This document shows, piece by piece, positions 1,886 to 47,374 of a stretch of 64,000 bases of DNA. The translations under genes were made by a program, and so were the position numbers. Every line of letters starts with the position of its first letter. Position 1 is the first letter of the stretch. Under the pieces are notes generated by a model. That model was not told the DNA's origin and did not search any database. It saw only the letters and a program-made list of their open reading frames with translations. Source of the stretch: Lactarius indigo (Eukaryota > Basidiomycota > Agaricomycetes > Russulales > Russulaceae); assembly GCA_025766275.1 (NCBI GenBank), contig JAFKAC010000048.1, positions 391,868 through 455,867 on the forward strand, read 5' to 3'.

Positions 1886-1896
1886 AGCTTTGGCTT
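1886..1896 (-). promoter_or_regulatory. Gyp-B primer-binding site of self-priming type
   Basis: In element sense this is AAGCCAAAGCT, one base inside the 5' LTR end at 1898. It is perfectly complementary to the 11 nt at 2103-2113 of the LTR, which start 34 nt after the first T of the TATA box. A tRNA primer site would normally start with TGG next to the LTR, and none is seen. The arrangement matches the Tf1/sushi mechanism, where the 5' end of the RNA folds back as primer. Confidence 0.65.
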
Positions 1897-2102: not shown

Positions 2103-2147
2103 AAGCCAAAGCTAAGGACATATAGGGTATGCTACAGGGTTTATATA
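2103..2147 (-). promoter_or_regulatory. Gyp-B LTR core promoter: TATA box and self-primer 5' end
   Basis: TATATAAA (2147 to 2140, minus) is followed by AGCTTTGGCTT starting at 2113, exactly 34 nt downstream. These 11 nt are the complement of the primer-binding site. The same 34-nt spacing recurs in Gyp-1, Gyp-2 and Gyp-3 with a different 11-nt word. The transcription start is inferred. Confidence 0.55.
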
Positions 2148-2349: not shown

Positions 2350-2713
2350 GGCACCTAAGTCTGTGGATGTTCCTTGATATAGCTCAAGGCAACAAAGCTT
2401 CAGAGAAGAGGGCTGTGGTAGAGAAGAGAGGAAAGTACTGAGGGGACTAGACAGTATATTGACGAAGCCAAAGCTAAGGAAATACAGGGTGTATTACGGG
2501 GTTTATATAGCTAGTGTCCAGGGGTGCCAGCAAGGCAATACAGTGCCAGCAAGGCAAATGCCAGCAAAGCAGATGCCAGCAAAGCAAATGCCAGCAAAGC
2601 AAATGCCAGCAGAACGAAGAAGTGAAGGAGAAATAGAAGGGAGGAGAAAGAGAGGAAAAATAGGGGGCGTTCATGACATTAGGGGTCAACCCACATCCCG
2701 GCAACAATGTGAC
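2350..2713 (-). repeat. LTR-B copy 2, solo or truncated, directly abutting copy 1
   Basis: From about 2362 it repeats copy 1: the TTCCTTGATATAGCTCAAGG block, the TATA region, the AAGCCAAAGCTA word, a 15-bp minisatellite and a GGGCGTTCATGACA block. The first about 90 bp of copy 1 have no equivalent. It may end at TGTGACG (2708-2714). It lies against the 3' end of the pogo transposase gene. Boundaries are approximate. Confidence 0.55.
2526..2612. repeat. 15-bp minisatellite inside LTR-B copy 2
   Basis: Five to six units close to GCCAGCAAAGCAAAT. The unit differs from that in copy 1, so each array has been homogenised separately. Confidence 0.85.
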
Positions 2714-2714
2714 G

Positions 2715-3969: not shown

Positions 3970-4492
3970 TGTAACACCGTCACGACGTCAGCTCGACTTG
4001 AGCACAGAGTGGCGGTAACGACTTAGCGATAGTCTCGACACAACGACACGAAGGTCTGTGTTCTTGCCTTGGTGAATACACGAAGGTACACCGGCAAGTC
4101 CTGATGGCTCTACTGGACTGGTCACAGACGAAGCTGGACCTAAGTGTTTGATAGCAAAGATGAGAATGAAAGAAACAAGTGACGATTCAAGAAGACCAAG
4201 ATGGCGTATCTTGGTCTTCACAATACAGTTTAAATACAAGTCGAGCAGGCTTAGAAGCGCTGCTATGAGTCACAGTAGGTAGCATCCAACGTATCGCAGA
4301 AACACCGCAAAGCTAATACTACTAGTACCTGTACTAGTATTGAGTCACCAAGGCACCACTCAGTCAGCTATCAGTCGCAATCGCCTATCATACTACTGTA
4401 TCACTGTAGGTAAGTCCACAACTAATATACCTTACCGCCGTAGTTGCAACTGGTACAGTAAGGGTATGGAGACAACCATTCGAAGCATAACA
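3970..4492 (-). repeat. Gyp-1 3' LTR (left)
   Basis: 523 bp, same length as its partner at 34176-34698. It contains the AAGACCAAGAT / ATCTTGGTCTT inverted repeat and TATTTAAA box found in all three related LTRs. Confidence 0.92.
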
Positions 4493-10578: not shown

Positions 10579-11092
10579 TGTAACGTCGTCACGATGTTAG
10601 CTTGACTTGAGCTCGGAATGGCGATAACAACTTAGCAAGTGGGCTCTGTCGACTTGAAGACGCGAAGGTCCAAGCCCTTGCCTTAGTGAATACACGGAGG
10701 TACACCAGCAAGCTTTGCTGTGCTTGAGTCACGATTGGAGTTGGACCCTCTCGAGTAGGCGAGTGGAGAAGAGAAGAGAAAGAAGAGAGAAAGTGACGAT
10801 TCAAGAAGACCAAGATGGTGTATCTTGGTCTTCACAGGACACTATAAATACAAGTCGAGCAGGCTTTGAAGCGCTGCTATGAGTCACCGTAAGTAAGCGT
10901 CCAACGTATCGCGTAAGTAGCTCGATCCTAGTACCACTACTACCAGTATTAGTGGCGTCGGTCATCAGTCAGCAATCGTATCGTATCTCCTATCACACTG
11001 CCGTATCACCGTAGTAAAGTCCGCAACTAATCTACCTTACCACCGTAGTTGCAACCGGTACAGTAAGGGTCCGTACGAGTCAAAACGTGACA
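10579..11092 (-). repeat. Gyp-2 3' LTR (left)
   Basis: 514 bp, equal in length to 17922-18435. Contains the TATA box and the self-primer word ATCTTGGTCTT with its upstream inverted copy. Confidence 0.93.
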
Positions 11093-17908: not shown

Positions 17909-17919
17909 ATCTTGGTCTT
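17909..17919 (-). promoter_or_regulatory. Gyp-2 primer-binding site of self-priming type
   Basis: AAGACCAAGAT in element sense, two bases from the 5' LTR, complementary to ATCTTGGTCTT at 18149-18159, which begins 34 nt after the TATA box (18186-18193). Confidence 0.7.
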
Positions 17920-17921
17920 AA

Positions 17922-18435
17922 TGTAACGTCATCACGACGTTAGCTCGACTTGAGCTCGGAATGGCGATAACAACTTAGCAAGTGGGCTCTGTCGACTTGA
18001 AGACGCGAAGGTCCAAGCCCTTGCCTTAGTGAATACATGGAGGTACACCGGCAAGCTTTGCTGTGCTTGAGTCACGATCGGAGTCGGACCCTCTCGAGTA
18101 GGCGAGTGGAGAAGAGAAGAGAAAGAAGAGAGAAAGTGACGATTCAAGAAGACCAAGATGGTGTATCTTGGTCTTCGCAGGACACTATAAATACAAGTCA
18201 AGCAGGCTTTGAAGCGCTGCTATGAGTCACCGTAAGTAAGCGTCCAACGTATCGCATAAGTAGCTCGATCCTAGTACCACTACTACCAGTATTAGTGGCA
18301 TCGGTCATCAGTCAGCAATCGTATCGTATCTCCTATCGCACTGCCGTATCACCATAGTAAAGTCCGCAACTAATCTACCTTAACACCATAGTTGCAACCG
18401 GTACAGTAAGGGTCCATACGAGTCAAAACGTGACA
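17922..18435 (-). repeat. Gyp-2 5' LTR (right)
   Basis: 514 bp. TATA box TATTTATA (18193 to 18186), putative RNA start at 18159, 11-bp inverted repeat around it. Confidence 0.93.
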
Positions 18436-24617: not shown

Positions 24618-24782
24618 TGTAACGTCGTCACGACGTTAGCTCGACTTGAGCTCGGTAGAGGCGATAACAACTTAGCGAATATTCCTGAAGACACGGAGGT
24701 CCAGATGCGGCTAATATCTTGAAGACGCGAAGGTCCAAGCGAAGTGATGGTGAATGCTTCGAAGGCACACCACTTAAGACGA

Positions 24783-24821
<39 letters not shown>

Positions 24822-25134
24822 GAGGCGAAACAAGTGACGATTCAAGAAGACCAAGATGGCGTATCTTGGTCTTTGCAAGTCAGTTTAAATACACAAACTA
24901 GCAGGCTTAGAAGCGCTGCTATGAGTCACAGTAGGTAGCGTCCAACGTATCGCAGAAACATCGCAAATCCTAATACTACTAGTACCTGTACTAGTATCGA
25001 GTCACCAAGGCACCGCTCAGTCAGCTATCGTACGCAATCTCCTATCGTACTGCCGTATCACCGTAGACAAGTCCGCAACTAATCTACCTTACCGCCGTAG
25101 TTGCAACCGGTACAGTAAGGGTCGGAACGTAACA
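24618..25134 (-). repeat. Gyp-3 3' LTR (left)
   Basis: 517 bp; shorter than its partner only because the (GA)n tract is 20 bp shorter. Confidence 0.95.
24789..24818. repeat. (GA)n microsatellite in Gyp-3 3' LTR
   Basis: Uninterrupted GA repeat lying in the transcribed leader part of the LTR (CT in element sense). Confidence 0.95.
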
Positions 25135-25165: not shown

Positions 25166-26370
25166 TCACCGAAAGTCGCGGGCCGGCCAGTCGCGCTGTT
25201 CATCGGCAATGCGCTCTAACGCGGTGGCGCGTTCCAAGCGGTAGATCGCGTCGCGCCGATCGTCTTGTGCGCATTCGATCATCGCGCGGAGTTGACTCAC
25301 CCTCGCCCGAAGTCGATCCAGCTCGTAGCTGGCCGCGCGGAAGCGCGTAACCTCCGCGGTGAGCGACTCGTCGTTGATGCGATTGAGCGCGCGGTTGGTG
25401 ATCTTGTCAGCCTCGAAGACGACGAGGTCTTCGTGTGGGTACGTGGGGCGGAGCGCCGCGGATACGTGGGGTTCTGCGTAAAGGGGCTTACCGTAGACGT
25501 GTGGCGAGCCCGGTATGACCCCCAATATGAGGGGGTCTGCCCCTCCGATGATCTGGACATGCGACGCGTCCCTTTCTACTCCGTCTGGTCCGGTGATGGG
25601 GTATCGAATGTGATGGGGTCGTCGGTTCGCCCGGAACCCTTCAGGCGCAATGACATGCGCGGGATCCTCGGCGGCGGTGAACGGACAGTGATCGGCGGCA
25701 CCAGGCACGCGCACACGTCCTCGATACATGGGGGACCCGTCGGAGTAGACGAGCCAGGGCGTGATGAGGGGATTATCAGGGTCGCGTTTCGTTCGAAGGA
25801 AGGTGTGTCTCGCCGGGTAATAATCTTCGTCGTCATGGCCAGCCTCAGCTGCCGCCATCGCTGCCGCCGCTCGCGCATCTCCCTCAGTCGGGCCGCTGCT
25901 GAGTCCAGCTGCTCCTTCTGCCACGCTGCCGCTACCCTCTTCCAGCCCTCCAACTCGTACTCCATCAGCGCTTGAACGCTGGTCGTTGCTCGGGAAAACT
26001 CCGCGAACGCCGATGAGGTCATCGCTTGGGGGGATAGCGGCGATGGGTTCGCGTTCGCTGCGATCGTTTCGGAAGACGTGGACGACGGCTCGGTCGTCGT
26101 CAGGGGTGGTCGTCGGGTCTGGGAATCTGGTGACGACGTTGATCCATTCTTGTGCGGTGATGGGCCCCTCTGCTGGTGCAAGAGGTGTCCATGGCGTGAG
26201 CTGAGTGTTGGGAACTTCGGTGTCGCTGTCCTCTGCCAAGAGGGCGCGGGCGTCTTCTGCAAGGGAGTCGAGGAGCTGCGCTTGTGTGACATGTCGTAGT
26301 GGGGAAGTGGGCATGAGAGTAATAGCTGAGCGAAGGAAGAGGGGATGACTGTCCTCTGTCCGAGCGACTC
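25166..26370 (-). other. post-chromodomain C-terminal module of Gyp-3 pol
   Basis: About 400 residues after the chromodomain: a Ser/Pro/Ala-rich linker ([18 protein letters not shown]), a probably globular part (RTKRDPDNPLITPWLVYSDG, APEGFRANRRPHHIRYPITG, ILGVIPGSPHVYGKPLYAEP), and a heptad-like end (LDRLRARVSQLRAM to ALERIADEQRDW). It is present at the same place in Gyp-1 (4522-5740) and Gyp-2 (11124-12300), so it belongs to the family. I do not recognise the fold; structural or envelope-like roles cannot be told from sequence. Confidence 0.7.
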
Positions 26371-29300
26371 CCACTTTATCTCTTCTACCGTGGGTTTGCG
26401 CTTCCTGATACAGGCGAAGCGCTTCCGGTGCGAAGACGTCATCTTTGTTGACCCACTGGTTCTCCGAGTCTGGGTACCCCTTCCATTTGATCAGATATTG
26501 AAGGCATCTTCCTCTGCCGAAATGCCGAGTGTCTAGAATGGCCTCGACTTCATATTCCTCTTCTCCATCTATCAGTTCGGGTGGTGGTCGTGTGAAGTTT
26601 TCCCCGTGCAAAGAAGTTTGCTTGTACGGTGTGAGAAGATCGATGTGAAACACTGGATGGATGCTCCACTGCGTGGGAAGTTCCAATCGATAGTTGTAAG
26701 GGGACATCACCTGTACCACCCGAAAGGGTCCGTGGCGTCGTGCCGCTAATTTCGCTGTAGGCTGATTGGTTCGGAGATGTTTGCCCTCGAGCCATACGAG
26801 GTCGTTGATGCTGAACTTGGGCGTATCTTTGTTGCGCACCCATGACTCTTGCGCCTTCTTTATAAGACGTTGGGCGGTGTCTCTAGCCTCTTTTAGTTGT
26901 GTCAGTCGCGCGGTTGCGAGAGGAATGGGAGATGGCTTATCCGTCCAGTCCGCTTGTGGGTTATACCCCATCAGAAGTTGGAACGGCGACTCTTTAGTGT
27001 GTTCATGTGGCCAATTGTTGTGTGCAAATTCGGCGATTGGTAGATAAGCTTCCCAGTTGTCTTGCCGCTCATTTACCCAGAAGCGTAGGTACTGTTCCAG
27101 CCACTGGTTAGTTCGCTCGGACTGTCCATCAGTACGTGGGTGGTATGCGGTTGATATGTTCTGCTGGATCCCCAAAATGCGGCATACTTCTCTGGTAAAC
27201 CTGGATGTGAAGCGTGGGTCGCGGTCACTTATTATTTTGCGCGGCAGTCCGAAGCGTTTGAACACTTGGGCGACATACAGAGTCGCCGTTTCTTCTGCGG
27301 TGATTTCCTCTCGGCATGGGATAAAGATTGAGGCCTTGCTGCAGTCGTGGTCTGTGACAGTTAGTATACTGTCATACCCCTTGGAAACGGGGAGTTTGGT
27401 GATAAAGTCCACCGCTACCGTGTGGAACGGCATGGCTTCCAGTATTGGTGTGATGGGATGCAGCGCGGCCCGTATGGGCCTCGTGTTGACTTTATTCCTT
27501 TGGCATTCTGCACAGCCTTGCACGTATTCATATACGTCTCTTCGGAGTCGCGGCCACCAGTAGTGTCTCTCCAGGATGCGTTGAGTTTTTGCAATTCCCG
27601 GATGGCCATGTATTGGCAAGTCGTGATGGTCGTGTATTAGTACTCGTTGAGTCGACGCTGGCCCTGTGATTACGAACCTGCCGTCCTTGTACCATTCTCC
27701 TTGTATTTTCTTGAGGCGATATGGGTCGACCCATATCTTGATCACCTCTTCGTCTTGTTGGTGGCATGGTTGTAGTAGATTTGGGTTGGCGATGAAGGTG
27801 CGTGCGGTGTTAAGGGTTCGTACAAAGATTTCGGGGGGCAGGACCACTACTTCGCTGTTGTCCTCGATGCCTTGGTCGTAATCCGGTCGTCTTGACAGCG
27901 CGTCCGCCCGCCCGTTGTTCTTTCCCTTAATGTGATGAATCTCGAAGTCGTATTCAGAAAGTTCGAGTACTTCCCTGGCGACTCGCCTGCTGATCTTCTG
28001 TGGTGACTTCCAGTATTGTAGGTTTAGATGGTCCGAATAGATTTTGATTTTGTGGGGGGCACCTGCGAGAAGTGGTCGCCAATTCCGTAGGGCCTTAACT
28101 ATCGCGAGCAGCTCCAGGTCATAGATGTCGTAGTTTCTTTCGGCTTCGGAAAGCGTCGCCGAGTAGTAACCTATGGGGTGTCGCTTGCCGTCAGATTTCT
28201 TTTGCAGTAATACGGCTCCCACCGCATAGCCCGAAGCGTCTACTTCCAATTCGAATGGGTCTTGAAGGATGGGGTGTGCGAGCACCGGTTCCTCCGTCAC
28301 GAGTCGTTTTAGGGTGTTAAACGCCTTTTCTTCTTCTTCAGTCCATCGCCATTCCTCATCCTTTCGTGTTAGTTTAGTGAGTGGCTTAGCGTGAGTTGCG
28401 AAACCACGGATAAAGAGTCTGTAAAAGTTACAGAAGCCGAGGAAAGAGCGGACGTCTTTGACTTTTGTTGGTGTTGGCCAGTCTTTGATTCCTTGAACTT
28501 TTACAGGGTCCATTCGGGTCACCCCCCTTTCAAGGATTACCCCCAGGTAATCCATCCGCGGTTGATGGAACAGGCACTTCTCGAGTTTGAAGTAGAGGTC
28601 GTGTTCCTCCGCAACGCGCAAGACATCGCGGACGGCGTCTACATGGGCCGCTAGGTCGTGATCAAAGTGAGTAGCGATACCAATATCGTCCATGTAGACG
28701 CGTATGGTAGTGCCCAGCCGTTCGTGCTTCGCTATGGTGTCACGATAGATGTGGTTCATCATGGCTTGGAAGGTGGCGGGGGAGTTAGTGAGCCCGAAGA
28801 ACATGACCGTGGGTTCGAAGAGGCCGAATTTAGTTTTGAACGCTGCCTTTTCCTGGTCGCCGTCACAAATGCGTATGTTATTGTAGCCCCACCGGATGTC
28901 GAGTTTAGTATAGATGTGGGCATTGCTGAGGTCAAGGATGAGGTCCTGTATTAATGGTAGTGGGTATTGATTCCGGATAGTGTGGGAGTTGATGACCCGG
29001 TAGTCCTGTACCAGGTGTAGTTTTCCGTCCTTCTTTTTAATGAAGAAGAAGGAGGATGCGTACGGAGAGATAGAGGGGCGCAGATATCCTTGCTTCAGTT
29101 TCTCCTCCAGAAACTCTTTGAGTTCGCCCTCTTCTTTTTGGGTCATAGGGTAGATCTTGCAGTCGATGGCGGCCGGCGCGGATGGCTTGAAGTCTATTGC
29201 GTGATCCCACGGCCTTGCCGGGGGGAATCGGTGTGAGGCTTGCTCATTAAAAAGTCTGGCAAACATTGCGTATTCCTGAGGAAGCACTGCTGCCGTTTGT

Positions 29301-29902
29301 TGTTGTTTCGCTTGTATGGCCAATTCCGTCGAGGTGGTGGCTCTAGCGAACGTTTCTTCTTCTAGTTCCCGCACAATGTCTTCCTTTTTGGCCATGATGA
29401 GGGCTCGAATGGTCGTTGTCGATAGTAGTGCTTCACTAGTTGCTAACATTATTGGTTGCATGTCGGGGTGTATGGTGGCGGTGGCCCAGCTGATCGTTGG
29501 CTCGAATGCGCTTAGCCATGGATAGCCTAGCACCATGTCTTCGCTTCCAAGGTCGGTGACTAGGAAGGTCATTTGCTTTATCTGTCCCCGTGTTTTCACC
29601 TCTAGGTTAACATAATGAGTGATTAACCCAGCTTTATTTTCCGTGTTGTCTATATTCCATATCTTGCGGGGCGTACTCAGCGGCTGTGTCTGGATACCAG
29701 CCCGTTTGGCCAAGCTGGGTCGGATGAAATTGTCGGTTGCGCCAGAGTCGACTAGCACATTTGTTTCAGTCGTTTGGTAATTCGTACGGACAGTCACTGG
29801 AACTCTCATAGATCGATAGCGCGTTGTCACAATTACAGAATTACATTGAAGAGCCCTCACCCAGACTGACGGGTTCAGGCGTCCCGAAAACCCTCTTTTC
29901 CC
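25166..29902 (-). CDS. Gyp-3 pol polyprotein (intact), expressed by -1 frameshift from gag
   Basis: The open frame reaches up to 29965 and overlaps gag by 91 bp; translation most likely enters it at the slippery sites 29887-29902. Domains, numbered from 29965: protease (DSGA, residues 73-76), reverse transcriptase (YMDD, about 427), RNase H (ELEVDASGYAVG, about 580), integrase with an HHCC finger (HGHPGIAKTQ to CAECQRNK, about 785-830) and D,D35E core (VTDHDCSK, SDRDPRF, DGQSERTNQW), then a chromodomain ([15 protein letters not shown] to WKGYPDSENQW, about 1140-1190). A further 400 residues follow that are not part of usual pol. They are shared with Gyp-1 and Gyp-2 and end in a likely coiled coil. 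Cytoplasmic particle, then nuclear integration; the chromodomain suggests histone-guided targeting. Confidence 0.93.
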   Translation of the reverse strand, partial: GKRGFSGRLNPSVWVRALQCNSVIVTTRYRSMRVPVTVRTNYQTTETNVLVDSGATDNFIRPSLAKRAGIQTQPLSTPRKIWNIDNTENKAGLITHYVNLEVKTRGQIKQMTFLVTDLGSEDMVLGYPWLSAFEPTISWATATIHPDMQPIMLATSEALLSTTTIRALIMAKKEDIVRELEEETFARATTSTELAIQAKQQQTAAVLPQEYAMFARLFNEQASHRFPPARPWDHAIDFKPSAPAAIDCKIYPMTQKEEGELKEFLEEKLKQGYLRPSISPYASSFFFIKKKDGKLHLVQDYRVINSHTIRNQYPLPLIQDLILDLSNAHIYTKLDIRWGYNNIRICDGDQEKAAFKTKFGLFEPTVMFFGLTNSPATFQAMMNHIYRDTIAKHERLGTTIRVYMDDIGIATHFDHDLAAHVDAVRDVLRVAEEHDLYFKLEKCLFHQPRMDYLGVILERGVTRMDPVKVQGIKDWPTPTKVKDVRSFLGFCNFYRLFIRGFATHAKPLTKLTRKDEEWRWTEEEEKAFNTLKRLVTEEPVLAHPILQDPFELEVDASGYAVGAVLLQKKSDGKRHPIGYYSATLSEAERNYDIYDLELLAIVKALRNWRPLLAGAPHKIKIYSDHLNLQYWKSPQKISRRVAREVLELSEYDFEIHHIKGKNNGRADALSRRPDYDQGIEDNSEVVVLPPEIFVRTLNTARTFIANPNLLQPCHQQDEEVIKIWVDPYRLKKIQGEWYKDGRFVITGPASTQRVLIHDHHDLPIHGHPGIAKTQRILERHYWWPRLRRDVYEYVQGCAECQRNKVNTRPIRAALHPITPILEAMPFHTVAVDFITKLPVSKGYDSILTVTDHDCSKASIFIPCREEITAEETATLYVAQVFKRFGLPRKIISDRDPRFTSRFTREVCRILGIQQNISTAYHPRTDGQSERTNQWLEQYLRFWVNERQDNWEAYLPIAEFAHNNWPHEHTKESPFQLLMGYNPQADWTDKPSPIPLATARLTQLKEARDTAQRLIKKAQESWVRNKDTPKFSINDLVWLEGKHLRTNQPTAKLAARRHGPFRVVQVMSPYNYRLELPTQWSIHPVFHIDLLTPYKQTSLHGENFTRPPPELIDGEEEYEVEAILDTRHFGRGRCLQYLIKWKGYPDSENQWVNKDDVFAPEALRLYQEAQTHGRRDKVGVARTEDSHPLFLRSAITLMPTSPLRHVTQAQLLDSLAEDARALLAEDSDTEVPNTQLTPWTPLAPAEGPITAQEWINVVTRFPDPTTTPDDDRAVVHVFRNDRSEREPIAAIPPSDDLIGVRGVFPSNDQRSSADGVRVGGLEEGSGSVAEGAAGLSSGPTEGDARAAAAMAAAEAGHDDEDYYPARHTFLRTKRDPDNPLITPWLVYSDGSPMYRGRVRVPGAADHCPFTAAEDPAHVIAPEGFRANRRPHHIRYPITGPDGVERDASHVQIIGGADPLILGVIPGSPHVYGKPLYAEPHVSAALRPTYPHEDLVVFEADKITNRALNRINDESLTAEVTRFRAASYELDRLRARVSQLRAMIECAQDDRRDAIYRLERATALERIADEQRDWPARDFR

Positions 29903-31944
29903 CATAGATCTTGAAGTATAAGATCTTTTACTTCGTCCGTACTGTTGGCCACCTGTGTGAGCCATTCTTTAGCTTGTTCCCCCGCTGTTTTCGTGCTTGC
30001 CGCATTGATTTGGGGCGCGGGCGTTACACTTGGTGCCAGCGACATATACCCGGGCAGCGACGGCGCGTACTGCGACGGCGCGTATTGTGAGACGGGTCCT
30101 TGAGGATATCCCGTAGTTTCGGTCATGCGGCTACTGGATGGGGCAGCCTGCCACTGCTGCTGCGTACGCGGATATGGGCAATTTCGTGAGAGGTGGCCGG
30201 GAGCGTGACAGTTATAGCAAAGGACATTCCTTAAGTCCCTTCGAGATCCCCCTCTTCCTCGTCCTCTGGCTCCCGGTCCTCCTCTCGGCGGGAATGGTGG
30301 TGCAGGCCAGTCGCGGTGTGGCAATTTGTTGAAGTCGATGTCTTCGGACCCTGCCAGCCTCACCTTTGCACGGTCCGCCGAGGTGTCCATTGCCCACGGG
30401 TTGGTTTGTGGCAGGTTCTGCGGGAGTGTCCATCCTGCATTGCCGCCCTGCTTCTTTGGTTGCGTCGTCGTGTTTTTGTATTCATTGAGTCGCGCCTTGA
30501 GATGGATGTAGTTCTTCTGCCGCTTGAGGACGGCCCTCTTCCAGTCATCGAACGTGACGGGGTCGTCGAACTGGAACGCGTTTTTGAACAGTTCCTTGGG
30601 TAGACCCGACGTAAAGAGGTCAATGGTTTGGGGTTCATTGAGGCGATAGTGAGCTTTCCGCGCGAGCTGTTCGAAGTCATTGACGTACTTGTCAATGTCC
30701 TCTCCTGTCATTTTGTACCCTTTTCGTAATATTGCTTGGGCTTGCTCTCTTTCCAACGTGTTTTCGAACCTTTGGCTGAATCCATCGGCTACGGCGTCCC
30801 ATAGTTCGCGAGTGTAGGGGCTTATTCCCCGTTGTATCTGCCTGTTGAGCCAGTTCAGGAAGGATAGAACCCATTCGCTGACTGCTCCGCCTTTGATGTA
30901 GGAGAGAAACAGGAGGCATCTTCTGTAGTCGTTGCGCATGATAGGGGCGTCCAAATTCATGCCCCAGTAGACATGCCACTGTGTTAGGAATTGGTCTACT
31001 TTGAGTCTGTCTCCGTCAAAAATGGAAGGTGGCTCGCCGGTTAGTTTCTCGTTATGATGTCCTCCTCCGCCGGCATCTCCACCACCTCCTCCTTCGCCGC
31101 CACCTCCACCTCCACCTCCGGGCGGTCCCATGGGCGGCATTCTTGGTGGTTCGGTCCTTCGTAGATCGAATGGGATACCCCCCCCTGGTGGCGGTGGTGG
31201 GTCTCCTCCCGGTCCTCCCGTTCCCGGCGGGAGGTCTAGTGCGGGTCGTCTTCCGGATGGGGGATCTCCTCGATCTGACCCTATTGCTCGAAAGATTGCT
31301 GCGTCGTCTGCAGTCATTCGTACGCCGGTCTCAGGGTTAATGGGCATGAGGATTTCTCGTGCTTCTTCTCGTATTGCGCGCGCTTCTTCAATCGCGACTT
31401 CTTCCATTGCTCTCGTTATTGTTGCCATAATGGCTGGTGATCGGATGTGAATCGGTTCTGGTTCAGTGATGTGTGCGGACTCAGCTCGTTCGATGAGGAG
31501 ATCTTGTATTGCTCCTCCGCTAGTTTCTGTCTGGTTCGGCTCTCGTCCCTCACTTTCGTCCTCGCTTTGCTCTTCTTCTTCTTCTGATATCACTTCTCCA
31601 GTGGAGTGTTCTCGTACTTGCCCGTCGATGGGGCCCCAATCTGTTCTGCTATTGAGTTCTCGGGCGTCGATATCACACCGATATCTAGGTCCTGCTGGTC
31701 GTATGACGTCCCACTGGGAATCTATGGGATTCCACGTAACCTCCGTCCAACACAAATGGTCGAAGTTGAACTCAACTGGTCGGAACCTACTAGGTCCGTT
31801 GAACTCTACAAAGTATCCGGTTTCTTCTTGTCTTTCCCTCCAACTAGCGGCTTGTAGGAAGCGCGTGGGGACGTTACATTCTCCCCTTCTTGGGAGCGAA
31901 TATGGACGGAAACTCGTCCACTGGTCTCTTGTTGTTACGGCCAC
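29875..31944 (-). CDS. Gyp-3 gag (intact, proposed GTG start)
   Basis: 689 codons from GTG 31944 to TGA 29875. N-terminal domain (residues 1-125: DQWTSFRPYSLP, then FNFDHLCWTEVTWNPIDSQWDVIRP), an acidic stretch (ISEEEEEQSEDESEG), a helical part with the first real ATG near residue 172 (SPAIMATITRAMEEV), a Gly/Pro-rich linker, a retrotransposon capsid-like domain (IFDGDRLKVDQFLTQW to KARLNEY) and a CCHC knuckle (CYNCHAPGHLSRNC). An in-frame TAA sits 18 bases upstream of the GTG, so nothing upstream can start the frame. GTG lies in ACCACC-GTG-GCC, six bases beyond the primer site. Conservation of the pre-ATG part in Gyp-2 argues that it is translated. Forms the virus-like particle. Confidence 0.88.
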   Translation of the reverse strand: MAVTTRDQWTSFRPYSLPRRGECNVPTRFLQAASWRERQEETGYFVEFNGPSRFRPVEFNFDHLCWTEVTWNPIDSQWDVIRPAGPRYRCDIDARELNSRTDWGPIDGQVREHSTGEVISEEEEEQSEDESEGREPNQTETSGGAIQDLLIERAESAHITEPEPIHIRSPAIMATITRAMEEVAIEEARAIREEAREILMPINPETGVRMTADDAAIFRAIGSDRGDPPSGRRPALDLPPGTGGPGGDPPPPPGGGIPFDLRRTEPPRMPPMGPPGGGGGGGGEGGGGGDAGGGGHHNEKLTGEPPSIFDGDRLKVDQFLTQWHVYWGMNLDAPIMRNDYRRCLLFLSYIKGGAVSEWVLSFLNWLNRQIQRGISPYTRELWDAVADGFSQRFENTLEREQAQAILRKGYKMTGEDIDKYVNDFEQLARKAHYRLNEPQTIDLFTSGLPKELFKNAFQFDDPVTFDDWKRAVLKRQKNYIHLKARLNEYKNTTTQPKKQGGNAGWTLPQNLPQTNPWAMDTSADRAKVRLAGSEDIDFNKLPHRDWPAPPFPPRGGPGARGRGRGGSRRDLRNVLCYNCHAPGHLSRNCPYPRTQQQWQAAPSSSRMTETTGYPQGPVSQYAPSQYAPSLPGYMSLAPSVTPAPQINAASTKTAGEQAKEWLTQVANSTDEVKDLILQDLWGKEGFRDA
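29887..29902 (-). promoter_or_regulatory. tandem candidate -1 slippery sites GGGAAAA and GGGTTTT at the gag/pol overlap
   Basis: In gag frame the bases read TGG GGA AAA GAG GGT TTT CGG. Both G GGA AAA (29902-29896) and G GGT TTT (29893-29887) fit X XXY YYZ, and slipping at either leads into the pol frame. Gyp-1 keeps only the first and Gyp-2 only the second. Confidence 0.65.
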
Positions 31945-31950
31945 GGTGGT

Positions 31951-31961
31951 ATCTTGGTCTT
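31951..31961 (-). promoter_or_regulatory. Gyp-3 primer-binding site of self-priming type
   Basis: AAGACCAAGAT in element sense, two bases from the 5' LTR. Perfect complement of the 11 nt at 32213-32223. No TGG-initiated tRNA complement is found next to the LTR. Confidence 0.75.
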
Positions 31962-32128
31962 AATGTAACGTCATCACGACGTTAGCTCGACTTGAGCTCG
32001 GTAGAGGCGATAACAACTTAGCGAATATTCCTGAAGACACGGAGGTCCAGATGCGGCTAATATCTTGAAGACGCGAAGGTCCAAGCGAAGTGACGGTGAA
32101 TGCTTCGAAGGCACACCACTTAAGACGA

Positions 32129-32130
<2 letters not shown>

Positions 32131-32184
<54 letters not shown>
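32131..32184. repeat. (GA)n microsatellite in Gyp-3 5' LTR
   Basis: GA tract, 20 bp longer than in the 3' LTR; it lies in the transcribed leader. Confidence 0.95.
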
Positions 32185-32187
<3 letters not shown>

Positions 32188-32212
32188 GAGGCGAAACAAG
32201 TGACGATTCAAG

Positions 32213-32257
32213 AAGACCAAGATGGCGTATCTTGGTCTTTGCAAGTCAGTTTAAATA
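32213..32257 (-). promoter_or_regulatory. Gyp-3 LTR core promoter: TATA box, hairpin and self-primer 5' end
   Basis: TATTTAAA at 32257-32250; the word ATCTTGGTCTT starts at 32223, 34 nt downstream. Between them AAGACCAAGAT (32239-32229) forms an inverted repeat with it, with a 5-bp spacer. Identical geometry in Gyp-1 (34442/34408) and Gyp-2 (18193/18159). Confidence 0.6.
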
Positions 32258-32500
32258 CACAAACTAGCAGGCTTAGAAGCGCTGCTATGAGTCACAGTAG
32301 GTAGCGTCCAACGTATCGCAGAAACATCGCAAATCCTAATACTACTAGTACCTGTACTAGTATCGAGTCACCAAGGCACCGCTCAGTCAGCTATCGTACG
32401 CAATCTCCTATCGTACTGCCGTATCACCGTAGACAAGTCCGCAACTAATCTACCTTACCGCTGTAGTTGCAACCGGTACAGTAAGGGTCGGAACGTAACA

Positions 32501-34162: not shown

Positions 34163-34173
34163 ATCTTGGTCTT
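34163..34173 (-). promoter_or_regulatory. Gyp-1 primer-binding site of self-priming type
   Basis: AAGACCAAGAT, two bases from the LTR, complementary to 34398-34408, which begins 34 nt after TATTTAAA (34442-34435). Confidence 0.7.
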
Positions 34174-34175
34174 AA

Positions 34176-34698
34176 TGTAACGCCGTCACGACGTCAGCTT
34201 GACTTGAGCACAGAGTGGCGGTAACGACTTAGCGATAGTCTCGACACGACGACACGAAGGTCCATGTTCTTGCCTTGGTGAATACACGAAGGTACACCGG
34301 CAAGTCCTGATGGCTCTACTGGACTGGTCACAGACAAAGCTGGACCTAAGTGTTTGATAGCGAAGATGAGAATGAAAGAAACAAGTGACGATTCAAGAAG
34401 ACCAAGATGGTGTATCTTGGTCTTCACAATACAGTTTAAATACAAGTCGAGCAGGCTTAGAAGCGCTGCTATGAGTCACAGTAGGTAGCGTCCAATGTAT
34501 CGCAGAAACACCGCAAAGCTAATACTACTAGTACCTGTACTAGTATTGAGTCACCAAGGCACCGCTCAGTCAGCTATCAGTCGTAATCGCCTATCGTACT
34601 ACCGTATCACCGTAGGTAAGTCTGCAACTAATATACCTTACCGCTGTAGTTGCAACTGGTACAGTAAGGGTATGGAGACAACTGTTCGAAGCGTAACA
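34176..34698 (-). repeat. Gyp-1 5' LTR (right)
   Basis: 523 bp, partner of 3970-4492; about 21 differences by eye, all transitions. Confidence 0.92.
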
Positions 34699-37653: not shown

Positions 37654-40600
37654 TCATTCTTTTTTGATCCACGACTCAAACTCACTGCTCAAGGGACGAG
37701 CATCTAAAACGCGACCCAGGTCCGTCCCACCGAATCCCATTCCCTTCCTTCGTAACCCCGTCAGCTCCTTGAAAATAGACATCACACTGACCGAAAACGG
37801 CGACCTTTCGCCCGTACGATACGCCGGAGGCACAAACCCGTCAACCTCAACATGCTTCGCACCTGGATGTGCCATGTGTAGCGCAAGTAACGCACAAACG
37901 CGTTGGTACTGCTCCCTGCTGTCAAAGTAGAGTTGACCCGCAAAGAGATTCAGCTTGATTTGGAGGTGTGCGGGGGCGGTCCATTCCCTCGCCGGAGATT
38001 CCGGGATGGTGTAGAAAGCGAGGTCGGAGAAGGACCGCATAGAGGTGGTGACTCGTGGCGCGTAAATGTGGAGTTGGACCTTTCCACTCTTGCGAATGAT
38101 AGGGAGTAGTTCGTTTGCCTCGTGTGGGCTGATGACGATCGCAATACTGTCCCTCCCAGATCCGCTCGATAAAACCCAATTGACGGGGCGGAGGTAGTCC
38201 GACAAGTGCGCGATACCGGAGCACCGGGTGGTGATAGCAAAATCTTTGGTCGCAAGTGGAGACGGGAGCCATTCTTCCGTCGAGTCCAGGGCCTTGTCGA
38301 CCCCGGTTTGAGAGAACAGCGGAATGATGTACCTGGAAGACATAGGGAGCACTCCAGTATGAATGAAGTTGCGAAGGTCGTGGTGGGTGGTGATATGCTT
38401 CGCAGGATACACCTTTGGGGGGCGCTCTGCTTGACGTTCTCGCTCAACTTCATGACTGACCTCCCGCTCTTGCTCTTCCGCCATTCTAACGTCAATCGAT
38501 CGAGTTATTCCAAGAAGTTCCAGCCGTTCACGTAGAGATAAGGTGCCATTTATTTCTGGGCTCAACCCAACGACCTGTGCGTTCGAGGTGGGCTCGTACA
38601 TTTCTTCTAAAGTCCGTGACTCGCGCTGTACCCAGGAATTCTTCAAAACATCCAGGTTTCCAGTTGAATTGTACTGCTTGTATGCAGAAAACCGCCTGTG
38701 ATGGTCAACTCCTTGCTGCGCCCAGTGCGGGAGATAGTGCCCAATATCCCAGCAAGTCTCGTGCATGGCCCAACGGAGGATGTCGGTCACGCATACACCT
38801 TTATCGGACTCTTGACCTCTTGGGATAAGTCCTCGAATCCGACGGTCGACTTCTCCGGGAGCGAAGAACACTACCGACTGCCCCTTCCCTAGCTGCCGCA
38901 TCCGCATACATCCTACATCCACTTAGCTTATTCTCCCTCGTTTTTGTAACAGCTCACCTTGTAGCAGCCTATCTTTGGTGACCTTCGGCCCGAGCGTGAC
39001 TGCTGCGCGCGTTTCTCGAGGAAGTTTCAGATCTGTCCCTCGTGTATGTACGTCATCAAGATATACAATGCACTTGTCAAGTTGTCGATTGAATGGAGAT
39101 GAGATCAGCGGTTCGATCGTTCCGTCCTGGGTGAGCACGGTGAGGTGATCCGATTCGTTGAAATAGATGGCTGCTGAGATATGGGGCATAAGGGAGAGCC
39201 AGTGTCGCACCAATTCCATGTTTTGCAGCTCCAGCATTTGTGCTCCAACGTCCAATAATACTCGAACCTCGGGTTCGTGTCTGGTAAGTCGCCGCAGGAA
39301 AGCCTCAGCAGATTCGCGTTCGCCCTTGATACCTTCGGTACATTCGTAGCGATTGTTTTCTGGACGGAGAAGGTAATGCAAGACAAGCGCATTGGTGCTC
39401 AGCTGTGAGACGGGATCCTCTTGAGTTATTGATGTCGGCAGGAGAAACCGATTATCGTTCGTGCCGCTGAAACCTGTTGTTACATTTGTCTTGTCTTCTA
39501 CCAGGTCCCAGGCCGACGTAGAAAGCTTAGACGGAAACTCCTTGGCCGCTCGGGGAAAGACTACATGAGACAGATAGAAATCGATGACTCTTGTATTCCT
39601 CGAGAATAGCGGAACGAGATATTCGTCGACTTGCGTGTCGTCTTTTGTATTTACGCCATTGACCTGTCGCAGTGAAGTGGGGACGCCCTCCCCAAACTCG
39701 ACCCACTGATCGTATTCCATGTCTGGATTGTCGAGCTTGGTGAGCAAATCGAAGCACTGAAGTACTTGCAACTTTGTTAGACCACCATAGTAATAACTGA
39801 GGCAAGTCAGCGCAATGGCCACGTCCGGGTGACCGAACTCTGCTCTCAAGCTTGGAACGTCCTATCTTTACTTTGAGTCATATTCCTTGGAAAGACTAGT
39901 GGGTGGCTTACCTTTGCCCGATACGGGACAGCTAGTAACGTCCTACCTGGATCGAGTCCGTAGTCCACTCTCCATCGGCGTGCTTTCAGCACGTAGCCGA
40001 GGATTCCTTCTCCGTCAACCAGGAGCCCACGGAGTAGAAGTATCCCGCTCCATAAGGTCGTTCCGGAGCAGTGCGATCTGATTAACTGATGATCTTCGAC
40101 AGAAACTTTCTTCTTGGTTATGAAGCGGCGGGTGGCAGCTCGAATCAGAGGCGAGAGAACGGCAAGTGAGAGAGTGGATAAAGCGCCTCCAAGAGCATCG
40201 TCGGCAATGAGCGAAGAGATCTGTCGAGAGACCTCTTGATTGAGGATTCGCATCGTCGGAAAGCCATTCTGAGTCTGATCGAGCTCGAACATCTGTGGAA
40301 AACGGACGTGCAACTGCGCGGCGTGTACCCTTAATCTACCGAAGACCTGTTGCGTCGTGGACCATCGATTTGGGTGGTCTTCGACCGGCATTTGCTCACC
40401 CACGGTGTAGACTAGCTGATATCGAACATGCAGGATCTCGTCGCTCTCGTCAAGTACGTCGCGTGATACTCCAGCCAACCAATCCTGTAGAGCTTTGAAT
40501 TCCTTGGCAATGGAGCGTTTCTTGCAGTCGTCGTGGAGTGTTAAGAGAGTATCGATGCACATCAGTTTCTGCGAGAGCAAGTGTTCGGGTTGGACGACAA

Positions 40601-43600
40601 GAACACCGCCCTCGACCGCGCATCGTCTGTAAAGAGAGCTGATGCTTTGGACCATGGAAGTGCTCATTTCTCGATTCCGTGAGAACGGAACATAGAAAAT
40701 ACGTCGGTCAGCAAGATCGGAAAGTTTGCTGAGTAGCAGTTGGAACATTTGGTTCGAGAGCGGTTTGAGAGTCACGACTCTCACAAGGTTGGAACCATCA
40801 GCTAGGGTCGCGGCAACGAAGGGTACAATCACGGACGACTTTCCCTCTCCCATGTTGAGCTGAAATGATGCACTTTGCTGACATGTGGGAGATATCATCT
40901 CGCGTGCGATTGCCAGTTGCAGCGGACGTGCCAAAAAGTTCGCGTTGATCTAACAATGCTTCCTGTTAGTGGTTGTAAACTTCACAGGTAAATTTACCGA
41001 CCTGTATCAGAAGCCAATCAGGAGAACAAGCCGCAGCTACATCCTCGCAAACGGTTTCCACTTCCCGGAGAAGTTCTTCATCCCGGCGCCTCGACGAAAG
41101 CTCAAGCAGACGCTGAGATTGCTGGTATTTGAGGAAGGCTATTGCATAGCGGGTGATAGCAAGCTTCCATTGGTCAGTGAGCCAGTGGACGCGATCCCTG
41201 GACAACTCTCGTAGGATAGATCGCGGCGTTATCCGAGGCCAAAGACCCGAGATGCTGGCGACAATTTCCTGTTTCTGAGATGGCGCTAGGGCCTCTGAAA
41301 TTTCAGAAAACATTGTATCCTTCCTTTTAGAGCACGAGTTGCGATATCGGAGTAAATCCTCCTGTGGGGGAATGATGTGATGTACAGGGAGAGGACCAGC
41401 TTTTTCCAGAAAGTCGCTATGACTCTTGCTCAGGTCTTCGCCGTAGTGCTGTAGCAATGACTTCCGGGATCGTCGGAGCTCATGAATAAGGCAGCTAAGG
41501 CTATCTTCCCTGCTTGACGGCAACTTATCCTCAGTCCCCATCATGACGATGGGGGATACGGCGAAATCTACCTGTTCGCAAATCGGTGACGGTGCGAAGT
41601 TGGCCCGAGACATCAACACTTCTCGAAGCGAAGGACTCAGAGATATCGCTTTGGATGATCCCGCACTGAACCGAAGGGAAAACCGGTATGGAGTGTTGGG
41701 GGGAATGGTGATCTCGTAGTGGTCTATGATTGCCTCGATGCGGTGTATATGGTCCCTCAGGTCGATGTTTCGGGATACCGATCGTAGGTAACTATCAACG
41801 AAAGCCTTGCAACGTTGAGTGTCGAACCACTGGGACGGAATATCGCACCATATCTTGGGCCACAGTTCAACTATTGTCTCCGCAGCCTCTGACACCATTT
41901 TGCTAATCGAACTGTTGTATTCTCGTCTTCGCTCCTTCGTAGCATTTTTATCGGTGATTGCCCGGACCTCCATAGTTTGCGCAGGGGTTAGCTCCAGGGG
42001 AAGGGCAAACTGAGACATCGAATTTACTAATCGTGCATGGTCCAGATACGTGCCGTCTGAAAGGTCATAGTAAGGCGGTGAGGGGCGTTTTAGACCACGG
42101 AATCTTGTGTCCGTCGCAAAAATTGCAATGAGAGAAATGATATCCGCGTCAAGATCCGCGTGATCAGTCCCGCTGAAGCTAGCTGCGGAAAGGCTGAACG
42201 CCAACTTGATCTTGGAGTCTTGAGGATCGCAGTTTAACGCTTCCTGACAAATGTCGTATATACTGAGCCAATCCTTCGCGGCGTTGAAAGTAAGCCAGTA
42301 TCGACTATATCGCAGAGAGGGCGTCGTCTCGGCTGTTCCAAGTGATCCCCAAGATTGCATTTCATCCCACAGATTCCGGGAAAGACAGAGTCTGCCGTTC
42401 CATACAGACCACGACGTCTGGTAGGCAGTGGCTTCAGAGCGGACATAATCAGCCACATCCCTTGACTTGTAGGCGATGTCCTCCGGAACTGAAAAGGACG
42501 AATGTCGTGAGCCTTGCAAGTCGTGTGGGTAGTACGCCATGTTACGAGAGATGGCGCGGTTCAGCAATGACGAGTCTTGAGGACGAATATTGAAGTCGAC
42601 GGGTCCGTCATAGAGTGCCTCCATTGCATTTCCGTGATCGAGAATAGAAACTACAGCTGTGTGAAAGTTGTGGTGCTGTGAAAGGACAGGAAGGTCGTTC
42701 CATTCCACCGTGACCATAGAGCGTAAGTGGGGCGGATAATATACTCTGCTTGGTGTTAAGTTGCCTATCAGGCGCAATAGCCTTGCATCGTCGTTGCTTA
42801 GTCTTTGAAACGACAGAAAAGTGGCACTTTGCAGCATGTGAAGGCATTCTTCGGTCCCAGTGTGCCCGAGTAACGGATCGGGGAGGCAATGGCTCGTAAG
42901 TGCGTGCAAATAACATTGGTATAGCTTGCTGCGCAGGCTCACGTTTCCGGTGAGACGTCCTAGATCGGTGTCGATAGTGTACTCGTGCCAGTGGATACGG
43001 CGCGCAGTTCCCGTTTTTATGGAAACATTGGGGAAGTCGCCATCTAAGCCAAACTCTATATCTCCCTGTGGAATAATGACCCTCCGCGGCACCTCCGAAG
43101 ACTCGTTGCTTGGGCGCAAGATGAGTCTATTTCTGAGCCCGAACATGGTGCCACAGGACTGAAGTTCATCGATGACGTAGCCCGGTATGCTTAGACATTC
43201 CAATTCTAAGTCCCGGTTGATGAAGAATGTGAGACCCAATCGACTGAGGGAAGCCTCTATTAGGTGACTCGTGCGCGTGACGATAATATGCTTCGGGGAT
43301 TCGAGTGCAGAAAATTGGCGAGATATCGTTTGAAATGTGGGGGAACGAATATCTATCAGATCTATTGGAACAACGCCATCTCCAGGAATCTTGCGGAACA
43401 ATGACCGGGTATCGTTTCTATGGACAGTGAGTCGCCAATTGGACGTACTTGGGGTCCAAGAAGATTCAACAGGGCGGAATTCAACCTCTCCGGTGCGAAG
43501 GTCAAGCCAGTGTACATATTTATCAACGAAAGCCTTCGGGAAGTCGCCATCGAATACTGCGCGTGGAACCAACTGGAAGTATGAGAGTTGAGGAGGTTCC

Positions 43601-46600
43601 ATCGGTTGCTGCTTGGATTTCTGGGCCCAGAGAGGTGTTTTTTTTTGTTTGTTTTTTTTAACCACAGGCTTGACCACAGGTCCTTGAACAGGTCGTATGG
43701 TATGTCGCCGAGCCTGTAGTATCAAAGCTCCACCGCGTAGCGAAAAGAGTACCTTCAACTTGCGTTAGCCCCTGGACAACACTGGCGACAACAATAACCC
43801 ACCTGGTACCCAAAGACATTTGTTCGAGTCATAAATTCCATTTGGGGGGTGTCAGCAGGAACTATATCAAGAACCCTCTGCAAGGAGCACGTGAGCTTGC
43901 GTGAGTAGGTATGGATCAGAATAACAATAACACTCACCGCTCCAAGGACACTTTTGTACGTTGGGTGTTCGATAATCTCTTGCGGCAGTCTTCCAAGGGG
44001 TTTTCCACCAATCAGTAATTTCCCGGTCAACAAATTATAGTGGAGCTTCTGTCCACCCTCCATGGTACAGGAGATCCACCGTGAGTTAGGACTGGGAAGT
44101 GCATGCCAATTTGAAGAGACATGCCGGCGGAACCCGGGCCATAAACTTGCGAAGCCGTGATCGAAACCTGATGGCTTAGATTTTAAGCATTCGTGGAGAA
44201 ATGGCTCGAGAAAATGAAGGAGGCGGTGGTGTCGGTTGAGAAGCCGAATGAGATAACGAGAATGGTCGTCTTCGAGAATGGATGGGGTGTTGTTGTGTAC
44301 GATTGCTGCGCAATGCACAGCTATGGCGATGTCGTCGTCGCGAGCAAGTGTCCAAGGGACATGTTCCAGGCAAACGTCATATGTAGAGAAACACGTTGCA
44401 GCCAGTGTGCAGAGTCGTCGACGCAGGTTCGTGCGCGACGTTTCGTCTTCAGTTACATCTAGCTTTGAATCAAGCTCGTTGATCCACTTATGCGCTACGC
44501 TCCGTGCCCTCTGAAGCAATCCATACGTTCTTTGGCGAATATCTGGATCACTAGTAGAAGATAGGAGGCGGCTGGTAATAAGAGCTACGAATCGTTAAAC
44601 TCAAGTCGACATGTAGCAAAGATCGAAGTTCAACGTACCAATAGTCCTGATGGTGACTTCCTCTAGCCAGTTGGCTTCTATCCTTCCGAGAAGATTCTCT
44701 AGTTCATGCAGAAGTGTCCGTCCAAAGCTGGGAATGTCAAGGTCGGTGTGCCATTCACGTTCACCGTCCAATAAAGGGCCAAGCTGCCAAGCTGCTTGAG
44801 TGATCAGCGTATGTACCTCCTCGCGGCGAAATGAGAGCGAGGGTGATGACAGCTCCCTTGCTATGTTCAACCATTGCAAACGTGGCCCACTGCGCAACCC
44901 AGAAAATGCCAAGTACTCATGAGCGCTCAGCTCCGACGGGCAGTCAGTCTGAGAGGCGATCACCACATTAGAAGTGTGGCGCGTTCCACAGACAAAGGAA
45001 TGGATTTTGCCGTACGGTGACGACACAGGAACAGGGGGGGTGCAGAGGTTGGCAATGGCAGATTTATGAAAGGCCCGTGCTGCCCACGATCCGCTCTTAC
45101 GATCATACAATTTGAAAGACAGCCCGTTGTTGAGTAAAACATCAGAATCGTCGGCAGGAATCTGAACCACCTTGTAGTGTGTTTGATCGAAAGATTTTGT
45201 GGTGGACCCAATTGTGATTCTGTGGTATGTGTGACGCACTGCCCAATCTCTTAGACCAGAGAAGGTATCTAAGAAGAGCTTTGGTTGGTCAGAGTTGTCA
45301 GAAGCGTTGGGCATCCCGATGTCACAGAGAATCTTGTAGGTCATCTCGCGCCACGCGGAAAACGCACGTGGTGGAGAAAGCTCGAATATTACTGATTGTG
45401 CCTTCGTCATCGCCTGTGGTAGTGGCCATTCGAAGACATCAATATTCAGCATCCTAGCCTCGTAGTTCATTCGACACTTTTCGCAACGACCATGGACTAG
45501 GTTTCCTTCATATCCCCGGAAGCAATCGTGAAACATCATTGAGGCCGCATCCGTAAGTAGCTTCCACTTCTTGTTCAGGTCATCAAGTTCGGCACGCTTT
45601 TCCTTCCATTGTTGCCTAGCATATCGACCGATATCGTCATAAAGTTCTTGCAGCTCCGGAGAATTACGGAAGTATTGTACGGCGAAGGACGATTCAGTAG
45701 CCGTGTCCGAGAATATGGACGTCGCACAGGAAGCGCCTTGATGCCGCTGTGAAATATACTCTTCAATGAGCATGGCACGTCGCAGGGAGCCAGACCGATG
45801 AAGGAGTAGGGGATGAAGGAAATCCTGAGGAATTTCCGGTGAATAAGATGATAGGAGAGGACATTGTTGGGTCGTCAGCTTATCCAAAGCCATCCAAAGA
45901 TCCATAATGGTCAAAATCATAACCGAGTTATCCTCGGGATAGGCATTGTAGATCTCCCTCACGCTAGCGTAATACTGCTCGACGCAGGATGCGATCACAT
46001 CCGGAGCATTGTTGTCGAGTTGATGCGAACTAACCCAGGAATCCAGGTGTCTCTCGACGGACAACTCGAAGTCCGCGAGAGCAGTGCGCTTGTCTGTTGC
46101 AACGGCCACTATGAGTCGGCCATCTGAAAAATGACTGAAGTCGACTGTGCTAACAAGGCGTAGTGGATGAGAAGGATAGAATTGTTCCTGCGCGTAGCTG
46201 TGCGATGTCGGGTACAGTGCATTTATGAGGTAAGAACGCGAATTATTGAGAGTAATTGCGGTATCTCGTTCGTAGTCCAGTTTCTCGGGTTGCCACGGCG
46301 GAGAAACAGACTGTCTCTCCTGGAAACTCGACCACCGGTTCTGAAGAAGAGTCTCCGTCTCTTTCGCTGCGCCGTACACAGCTTGATAGACATCCTTTGA
46401 AACGGTGGGACCCAGCTTTGAGAGACGTCGTGCCGTCTTGATCCTCATTAAGTGCAGAGTTTCGCTTGGAATACCCCTTTGGACGCAGATTTGGAGGAGG
46501 TGTGCATGAAAAAAGAGAATAAATGTTTTGTACATGTCGCGGTCCAGGGATGTTTGAAGTGCCACCCTGACAACGAGCCAGAGCGGCGATCGGCGCCATG

Positions 46601-47374
46601 GCTTGTAAGCGTCTTTCCAAAGAACTTCATCCCCTATCCGCTTCGTGATACGATTCACAGAGGCCGGCTGACCAAATCCTCTTAGAATCCCCACTAATAG
46701 TTCGGATATATATCTTGGGTGAGCGCTCTCGCGAACTTCGCGTACGGTGGACCCGGCCTTGACTGTGGTCGCAGTGGAATCTAATACATCGACATCCATT
46801 TGTATGAGAAAGGAAGCGAGTTCTTGAAGAAAACATTTTTTCGAAAATATATCGGAGGAGATCTGGATAGAGGGACCGGGATAGGAGCAGAGAAGCTTTC
46901 CGTTGGTCGACATAACGTTGCTGGCTGGCGGGGAGACTTCGAAGATCTCGAACCGAACATGATCAGTGAGCATGCGAACGATGACAGCGGCATTCTGAGC
47001 TCGGATATGCATAACGAAAACATCTGAAAGTGAAGGTAAACGAAGGTACAACACGCCGTGGGTGGCAACCCGGGCTCACCTCCGACAGCAAGATCTGATA
47101 AGGCATTTGCAAGTTCCGCCTCTAGTACCACTTGGGTCCTCGCAATCTGGTGGATAGATTCCATCATTTTTACCATCCGCGCCCATAGCGATTGCTGATG
47201 AGGTGAGAGGTCCTTGGAGAAAATTCGAGCAGCTCCTTCGAGGATGTAGCACAATGCCACATTACTCTCGCGTTCAGCTTTCTCTGTCGGGGCTTGTTGG
47301 GGAAGCTTGGGGGGGAGAAACACGTGCTCAACAACTGAGAGCAAGATCTTGGAATCAAAAACAGATATGGACAT
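37654..47374 (-). CDS. giant DUF6606/DUF3638/DUF3645 protein, copy 1 (3,117 aa)
   Basis: Eight exons by eye: 47374-47080, 47023-44639, 44584-43938, 43877-43803, 43752-41002, 40949-39912, 39861-38958, 38912-37654; introns 48-60 bp (one 45), phases consistent, total 9,354 nt. DUF6606-like N-terminus (VEHVFLPPKLP, residues about 15-25), a middle with LPDPLLGHTGTEE (about 1425), DUF3638 with LNMGEGKSSVIVP (GEGKSS 2085-2090) and LDESDE (2217-2222), DUF3645 with FGHPDVAIALTCLSYYYGGLT (about 2405) and YLDDVHTRGTDLKLP plus QGCMRMRQLGKGQS (about 2660-2711). Databases often label the family ubiquitinyl hydrolase-like, but I see no protease triad. The motif set instead looks like an ATPase motor. A Lys-rich insert of about 36 residues (43630-43690) is absent from copy 2. 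Function unknown. Confidence 0.88.

Follow-up and report, generated by a model that had tools for sequence, protein, structure and literature searches.

Putative self-priming of chromodomain Ty3/Gypsy elements in the genome of Lactarius indigo

Our analysis of a 64,000-nucleotide stretch of the Lactarius indigo genome (contig JAFKAC010000048.1; hereafter the window) implies that three chromodomain Ty3/Gypsy elements, Gyp-1, Gyp-2 and Gyp-3, all read on the minus strand, very probably use the 5' end of their own RNA as the primer of reverse transcription. The first-pass annotation of this DNA had inferred such priming from the window copies, and the idea is supported here by primer and primer site changing together in six versions and by a covarying helix between R and U5. 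Self-priming itself is already known from the Tf1/sushi elements; the unexplained extra, in one abundant family, is a conserved hairpin across the putative start of transcription.

Primer, primer site and their covariation

In all three Gyp elements the end of the 5' long terminal repeat (LTR) is separated by TT from the putative primer binding site AAGACCAAGAT (the minus strand of Gyp-3 reads ...GTTACA, then TT, then AAGACCAAGAT), and the LTR itself carries ATCTTGGTCTT exactly 34 nucleotides (nt) from the first T of TATTTAAA or TATTTATA. The spacing from the TATA box would place the RNA start of Gyp-3 at 32223. The exact complementarity of the two 11-mers and the 34-nt spacing, both claimed earlier for Gyp-3, were confirmed on the sequence, as were the positions given for the site, self-primer and TATA box of Gyp-2 and Gyp-1. 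The site had been described as lying inside the 5' LTR; the 11-nt match stands, but its place is downstream of the LTR, two bases past the end. The 11-mer is found 15 times in the window, where 0.03 would be expected, and 2985 times per strand in the genome (90.3 Mb), whose strands carry the reversed word 33 and 44 times. Being related, the three window copies do not count as independent evidence; independence rests on the other families.

These were sought among 2282 RNase H candidates in the genome, 150 of which were scored and listed and 30 of these clustered. The 5' regions fetched first (16 from clusters and 4 from unclustered candidates) had the signature directly after ACATT in 19 of 20 cases, the only miss being L097, whose fetched stretch holds no LTR. 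A second batch of 7 stretches added 5 of 5 Gypsy regions with the signature. Overall it was found in 24 of 25 Gypsy 5' regions as against neither of two Copia contrast stretches, whose LTR ends are unmapped. We also scanned all sequence analysed for 11-nt reverse complements separated by 120-700 nt, requiring an LTR-like end and, 30-36 nt upstream, a TATA-like box. This gave 36 word contexts, or 31 once words shifted by one base were merged; the control scans gave 0 for reversed words, 0 for complement words and 6, in two places, for direct words. All 27 Gyp-type contexts have a TATA-like word at a distance of 34 nt.

The word itself differs among families. Clade C, which accounts for 2 of the 19 first-batch regions and for two further copies in the second batch, has AGACTAGACTT / AAGTCTAGTCT, and its pol shares 54-57% protein identity with Gyp-3 pol. 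Family S, which has one copy in the window and another in L102, has a word of its own (Table 1), and the second batch brought three more versions: AACTTGTCCT (10 nt, L115), GTCTACTCTTA (L116) and AGCTCGACTTA (L117, 12 nt when one flanking base is counted in). The last three families were picked from SH3_Tf2-1 matches. There are thus six versions in total, ATCTTGGTCTT, AGACTAGACTT, AGCTTTGGCTT, AGCTCGACTTA and GTCTACTCTTA with 11-12 nt and AACTTGTCCT with 10 nt, and in all of them 10-12 nt of the site are exactly complementary to the LTR of the same element, and the site lies 0-2 nt past the ACA read as the LTR end. The distance from the TATA-like box to the word ranges over 33-36 nt: 34 in Gyp, S and L116, 33 in C and L115, and 35-36 in L117.

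Two of these families show duplications near the start. The TAGCTTTGGCTT start region of family S occurs twice on the minus strand, at 2476 and 2114, 362 nt apart, which suggests a partial second LTR. The primer region of L115, a family with a 1298-residue protein, is doubled within one LTR, 67 nt apart (336 and 403, reverse orientation, 0-based).

A second predicted helix, helix 2, would join the RNA shortly after the primer to the end of U5. Each of seven leaders received a score for the best uninterrupted helix that the 20 nt past its primer can form with a U5 arm at a fixed distance from the site. The mean score of a leader with its own arm peaks at a distance of 9-10 nt, at 12.4 against 7.0-7.1 for swapped leaders, and the true assignment alone among 5040 permutations reaches the observed mean. 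In 6 of the 7 leaders the helix has 5-8 contiguous pairs and its right arm stops 8-10 nt short of the site: TCGTCAC:GTGATGA (Gyp-3), TCCACC:GGTGGA (L100), TACTACA:TGTAGTG (C), TACTGTC:GGCAGTG (S), TCCGA:TCGGA (L116) and TGCAGTAA:TTACTGCG (L117). The test, the only one to bring out helix 2, was designed after the 8-10 nt spacing had been spotted by eye in most of the leaders, and two of them, Gyp-3 and L100, are related, so that the permutation result is optimistic and somewhat overstates the strength of helix 2.

Table 1. Positions of the elements and of their putative priming features in the window
Feature	Position	Strand	Remark
Gyp-3 TATA box TATTTAAA	32250..32257	-	first base 32257, exactly 34 nt ahead of 32223
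Gyp-3 U3 arm AAGACCAAGAT	32229..32239	-	able to form a hairpin with the self-primer over the putative start; 5-nt spacer
Gyp-3 self-primer ATCTTGGTCTT	32213..32223	-	putative first 11 nt of the RNA; 34 nt from the TATA box
Gyp-3 helix 2 left arm TCGTCAC	32200..32206	-	RNA nt 18-24; covaries with its partner among families
Gyp-3 helix 2 right arm GTGATGA	31971..31977	-	9 nt ahead of the primer site
Gyp-3 5' LTR	31964..32500	-	537 nt; TG..CA ends; target site duplication ATGTC
Gyp-3 primer binding site AAGACCAAGAT	31951..31961	-	2 nt past the LTR end
Gyp-3 gag open reading frame	29875..31944	-	Retrotrans_gag, CCHC knuckle; first listed codon GTG
Gyp-3 pol	25166..29965	-	protease, reverse transcriptase, RNase H, integrase, SH3_Tf2-1, chromodomain
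Gyp-3 3' LTR	24618..25134	-	same start-site palindrome at 24847-24873
Gyp-2 5' LTR	17922..18435	-	target site duplication CACCA
Gyp-2 3' LTR	10579-11092	-	
Gyp-2 primer binding site	17909..17919	-	exact 11-mer
Gyp-2 self-primer	18149..18159	-	U3 arm 18165-18175; TATA 18193
Gyp-1 5' LTR	34176..34698	-	target site duplication CCACA
Gyp-1 3' LTR	3970-4492	-	
Gyp-1 primer binding site	34163..34173	-	exact 11-mer
Gyp-1 self-primer	34398..34408	-	U3 arm 34414-34424; TATA 34442
Family S primer site AAGCCAAAGCT	1886..1896	-	word differs from Gyp; gag 154-1284, pol outside the window
Family S self-primer AGCTTTGGCTT	2103..2113	-	34 nt from TATATAAA

Probable self-priming and its rivals

Several observations weigh against self-priming. 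Every family comes from one genome. The box of L117 is TACTTAA, which is no good TATA and stands 35-36 nt away, and L115 pairs its primer with the site over 10 nt only and has a helix 2 of just 4 contiguous pairs. Folding of the leader RNA, which the first-pass annotation had named as a check, bears the pairing out in part. When leaders were folded in isolation, the 5' 11-mer and the site had a mean pairing probability above 0.4 in 18 of 22, the four exceptions being Gyp-3 (0.11), Gyp-1 (0.00), L106 (0.06) and L108 (0.04). Forcing the pairing in Gyp-3 costs just 0.6 kcal/mol. When the duplex between R and U5 was sought in loose windows, its energy beat the shuffles in one of seven leaders (p 0.04), the rest giving p 0.16-0.73. 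The 'pretzel' leader described for Tf1/sushi elements in the excerpted text of PMC10085805 has a third duplex, located towards gag, which is not clearly present here: of 5040 permutations, 237 and 251 attain the observed score in the two narrowest windows, and 2722 and 3949 in wider ones.

One could argue that these elements are primed by a transfer RNA (tRNA) of the host, or by an internal piece of one, and that the match to the LTR is incidental. Most surveyed plant LTR elements use tRNA (PMC6317226, in excerpt), and fungal FunCo1 Copia elements are reported with an internal tRNA-Lys primer site (PMC5445492, in excerpt). In our own sample 7 nt of the L116 site match the anticodon region of tRNA-Lys, a match that speaks against self-priming and makes L116 the least safe of the six versions. 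Both Copia contrast stretches have CA and then, within 2 nt, GGTTATGGGCCC, which we take to be a half-tRNA-iMet type site. The Gyp LTR end has no TGG following it. For a direct comparison Aragorn was run on 50 stretches and returned 51 genes, 32 of them with distinct sequences (introns retained), out of 63 genes reported, and a looser search gave the same 63. An initiator-Met arm pattern, used as a positive control, had 0 matches, and the control thus failed. The complementarity check that the first-pass annotation had put forward was thereby answered in part, for the Gyp site matches none of the 32 sequences over more than 6 nt, in a set that is without Met (including initiator Met), Phe, Pro, His and Asp. 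The longest matches over the six families are 6 to 9 nt; the 9-nt one, between family S and tRNA-Cys, is reached by 8% of shuffles and those of the other families by at least 58%. The comparison with this incomplete set thus gives no support to tRNA priming of the Gyp site, and each of the six primer sites tracks its own LTR. We consider tRNA priming very improbable.

It could also be that the palindrome in the LTR is an element of the DNA, namely a transcription-factor dyad or core promoter, and that the copy behind the LTR is a by-product of recombination. This is quite improbable, even though the U3 arm, which in Gyp-type LTRs repeats the primer word in inverted orientation 5 nt before the putative start, is 97% conserved against 65% in the preceding 10 nt and 81% further upstream and may have a role of its own. 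Such a reading leaves unexplained why the site lies so close behind the LTR end in six versions and why helix 2 covaries, and at least one version, that of family S, does without the start hairpin. The possibility that the match reflects chance or the shared ancestry of near-identical copies is practically negligible. The relatedness of the three window copies and the fact that the 2985 words per strand mostly belong to one family speak for it; against it stand the different words in clade C, with its 54-57% pol identity, and in four further families, and the controls for the relation between the words, two of which gave no match and the third matches in two places. The six versions are strong evidence against it. 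Priming by the RNA's own 5' end is the reading that we carry forward.

Structure of the elements and comparison with known systems

The coordinates and target site duplications show Gyp-2 and Gyp-3 nested within Gyp-1. By its domain content Gyp-3 is a chromovirus with the pol order of Ty3/Gypsy elements; the Pfam matches, read for the pol of this element only, run RVT_1, RNase H, H2C2, rve, SH3_Tf2-1 and Chromo, and the top-scoring solved structure is that of Ty3. The pol frame is in the -1 frame relative to gag, with an overlap of 91 nt computed from the open reading frame coordinates. Past the chromodomain the pol C-terminus extends for some 410 residues without a Pfam match. The two LTRs of Gyp-3 are 99.4% identical over 517 aligned positions. 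Over the LTR pairs of all three elements, 39 of 40 substitutions are transitions, 35 of the 40 being transitions at CpG, as expected from methyl-CpG decay; dating by LTR divergence is therefore unsafe and was set aside. A search of viral contigs found no relative, and a homologue search matched 1645 proteins, of which the 120 listed are mostly unnamed and unusable for placement.

The window also contains two long, similar gene blocks on the minus strand (37654-47054 and 51130-60834), each with one frame matching DUF6606 (PF20255; 44601-47054 and 57997-60834), in a region with repeats spaced about 13.4 kb apart. DUF6606 is linked to Agaricomycetes, and its presence makes plausible the mushroom origin that the first-pass annotation gave to the elements. 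A DDE_1 transposase-like frame lies at 2474-3295 on the minus strand.

The literature on related systems is cited here from excerpts. In Tf1 of Schizosaccharomyces pombe the first 11 bases of the RNA are complementary to the primer site, and the element resembles Gyp in this 11-base complementarity, in its chromodomain integrase and in an extra helix beside the primer duplex (PMC7175516). The 'pretzel' leader of the Tf1/sushi elements is likewise built on a central primer duplex and a flanking duplex that joins sequence adjacent to the site with LTR sequence downstream of the primer (PMC10085805), so that the predicted primer duplex and helix 2 of the leaders studied here match two of its three duplexes. 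The differences are that Tf1 has a single open reading frame (PMC10085805), whereas gag and pol of Gyp-3 overlap, and that a start palindrome like that of the Gyp LTRs goes unmentioned in the excerpted text. Tj1 of S. japonicus, an active element, also has a site complementary to the RNA 5' end (PMC4600332); here too the overlapping gag and pol frames of Gyp-3 are a difference. That the Gyp elements would work like Tf1 is supported, the class being assigned by signature and domains.

Among basidiomycete chromoviruses, self-priming has been proposed for Tcn1 of Cryptococcus neoformans (PMC7175516); Tcn1 and marY1 of Tricholoma matsutake stand among the chromoviruses in a published tree (PMC10085805). 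Self-priming is reported or proposed for the plant Tcn1 clade as well (PMC6317226), and in SM-Tcn1 of spikemoss neither mode of priming, by tRNA or by the RNA itself, was found, as far as the excerpt of PMC2864245 tells. The fungal GalEa Copia elements are similar in having a conserved palindrome, the Conserved Hairpin Site, and no classical primer site; unlike Gyp, they are Copia elements, and according to the excerpted text their authors detected no complement of the hairpin site (PMC5445492).

The start-site palindrome and a probable course of priming

All six Gyp LTRs of the window contain the palindrome AAGACCAAGAT-N5-ATCTTGGTCTT, which is absent from the first-pass annotation. In 27 distinct Gyp-type contexts the U3 arm has no mismatch in 20, one in 6 and two in 1, and the 5-nt spacer is constant in all 27. 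Genome-wide the perfect palindrome followed by CTT has 1567 matches, a few places being counted on both strands, and the primer word followed by CTT[CG]AATC has 2716, a pattern of different scope. We rejected the notion that the palindrome is common to all families: it is strong in Gyp-type elements and in L115 (a different hairpin, z -5.0), weak in C (-1.7), L116 (-1.5) and L117 (-2.0), and absent from S (+1.5). When start regions were permuted between own and swapped partners, 16 of 5040 permutations reached the observed score, in a set where Gyp-3 and L100 share the same word. Our literature survey found no self-priming LTR described with a palindrome over its start; it was made without Butler 2001, Goodwin and Poulter 2001 and four Tf1 papers or reviews, and we therefore claim no absence.

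Priming by the RNA's own end could proceed as follows. RNA polymerase II would begin transcription at the A that stands 34 nt from the TATA box, which would make AUCUUGGUCUU the first 11 nt of the RNA, and these would anneal to the primer site two bases past the LTR. Helix 2, a predicted structure for which sequence and covariation argue, would hold both parts together by pairing RNA nt ~18-24 with the end of U5. By analogy with Tf1, the RNase H of the element would cut behind nt 11, and synthesis would proceed from the 3' end of the 11-mer into U5 and R. The plus strand would then copy the primer, so that the site would be rewritten from the primer and both would be kept in step.

An RNA made from the 5' LTR would start within the palindrome, which leaves only read-through transcripts and the 3' LTR part of the RNA as places for the hairpin. 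We hypothesize that the U3 arm folds onto the primer word there and keeps these copies from competing for the site. It is possible, though we hold it to be doubtful, that the palindrome is a checkpoint of self-priming, at which only an RNA with the exact start has a free 5' 11-mer and at which RNAs started upstream and the 3' LTR copies fold it away; a promoter dyad is the main alternative to such a role.

The presence of at least six co-changing versions of primer and site in one fungal genome amounts to a natural covariation experiment which supports self-priming at the RNA level without tRNA. It yields predictions, exact to the nucleotide, of the RNA starts in thousands of copies. The conserved start hairpin, in turn, could reveal how such elements choose the correct primer.
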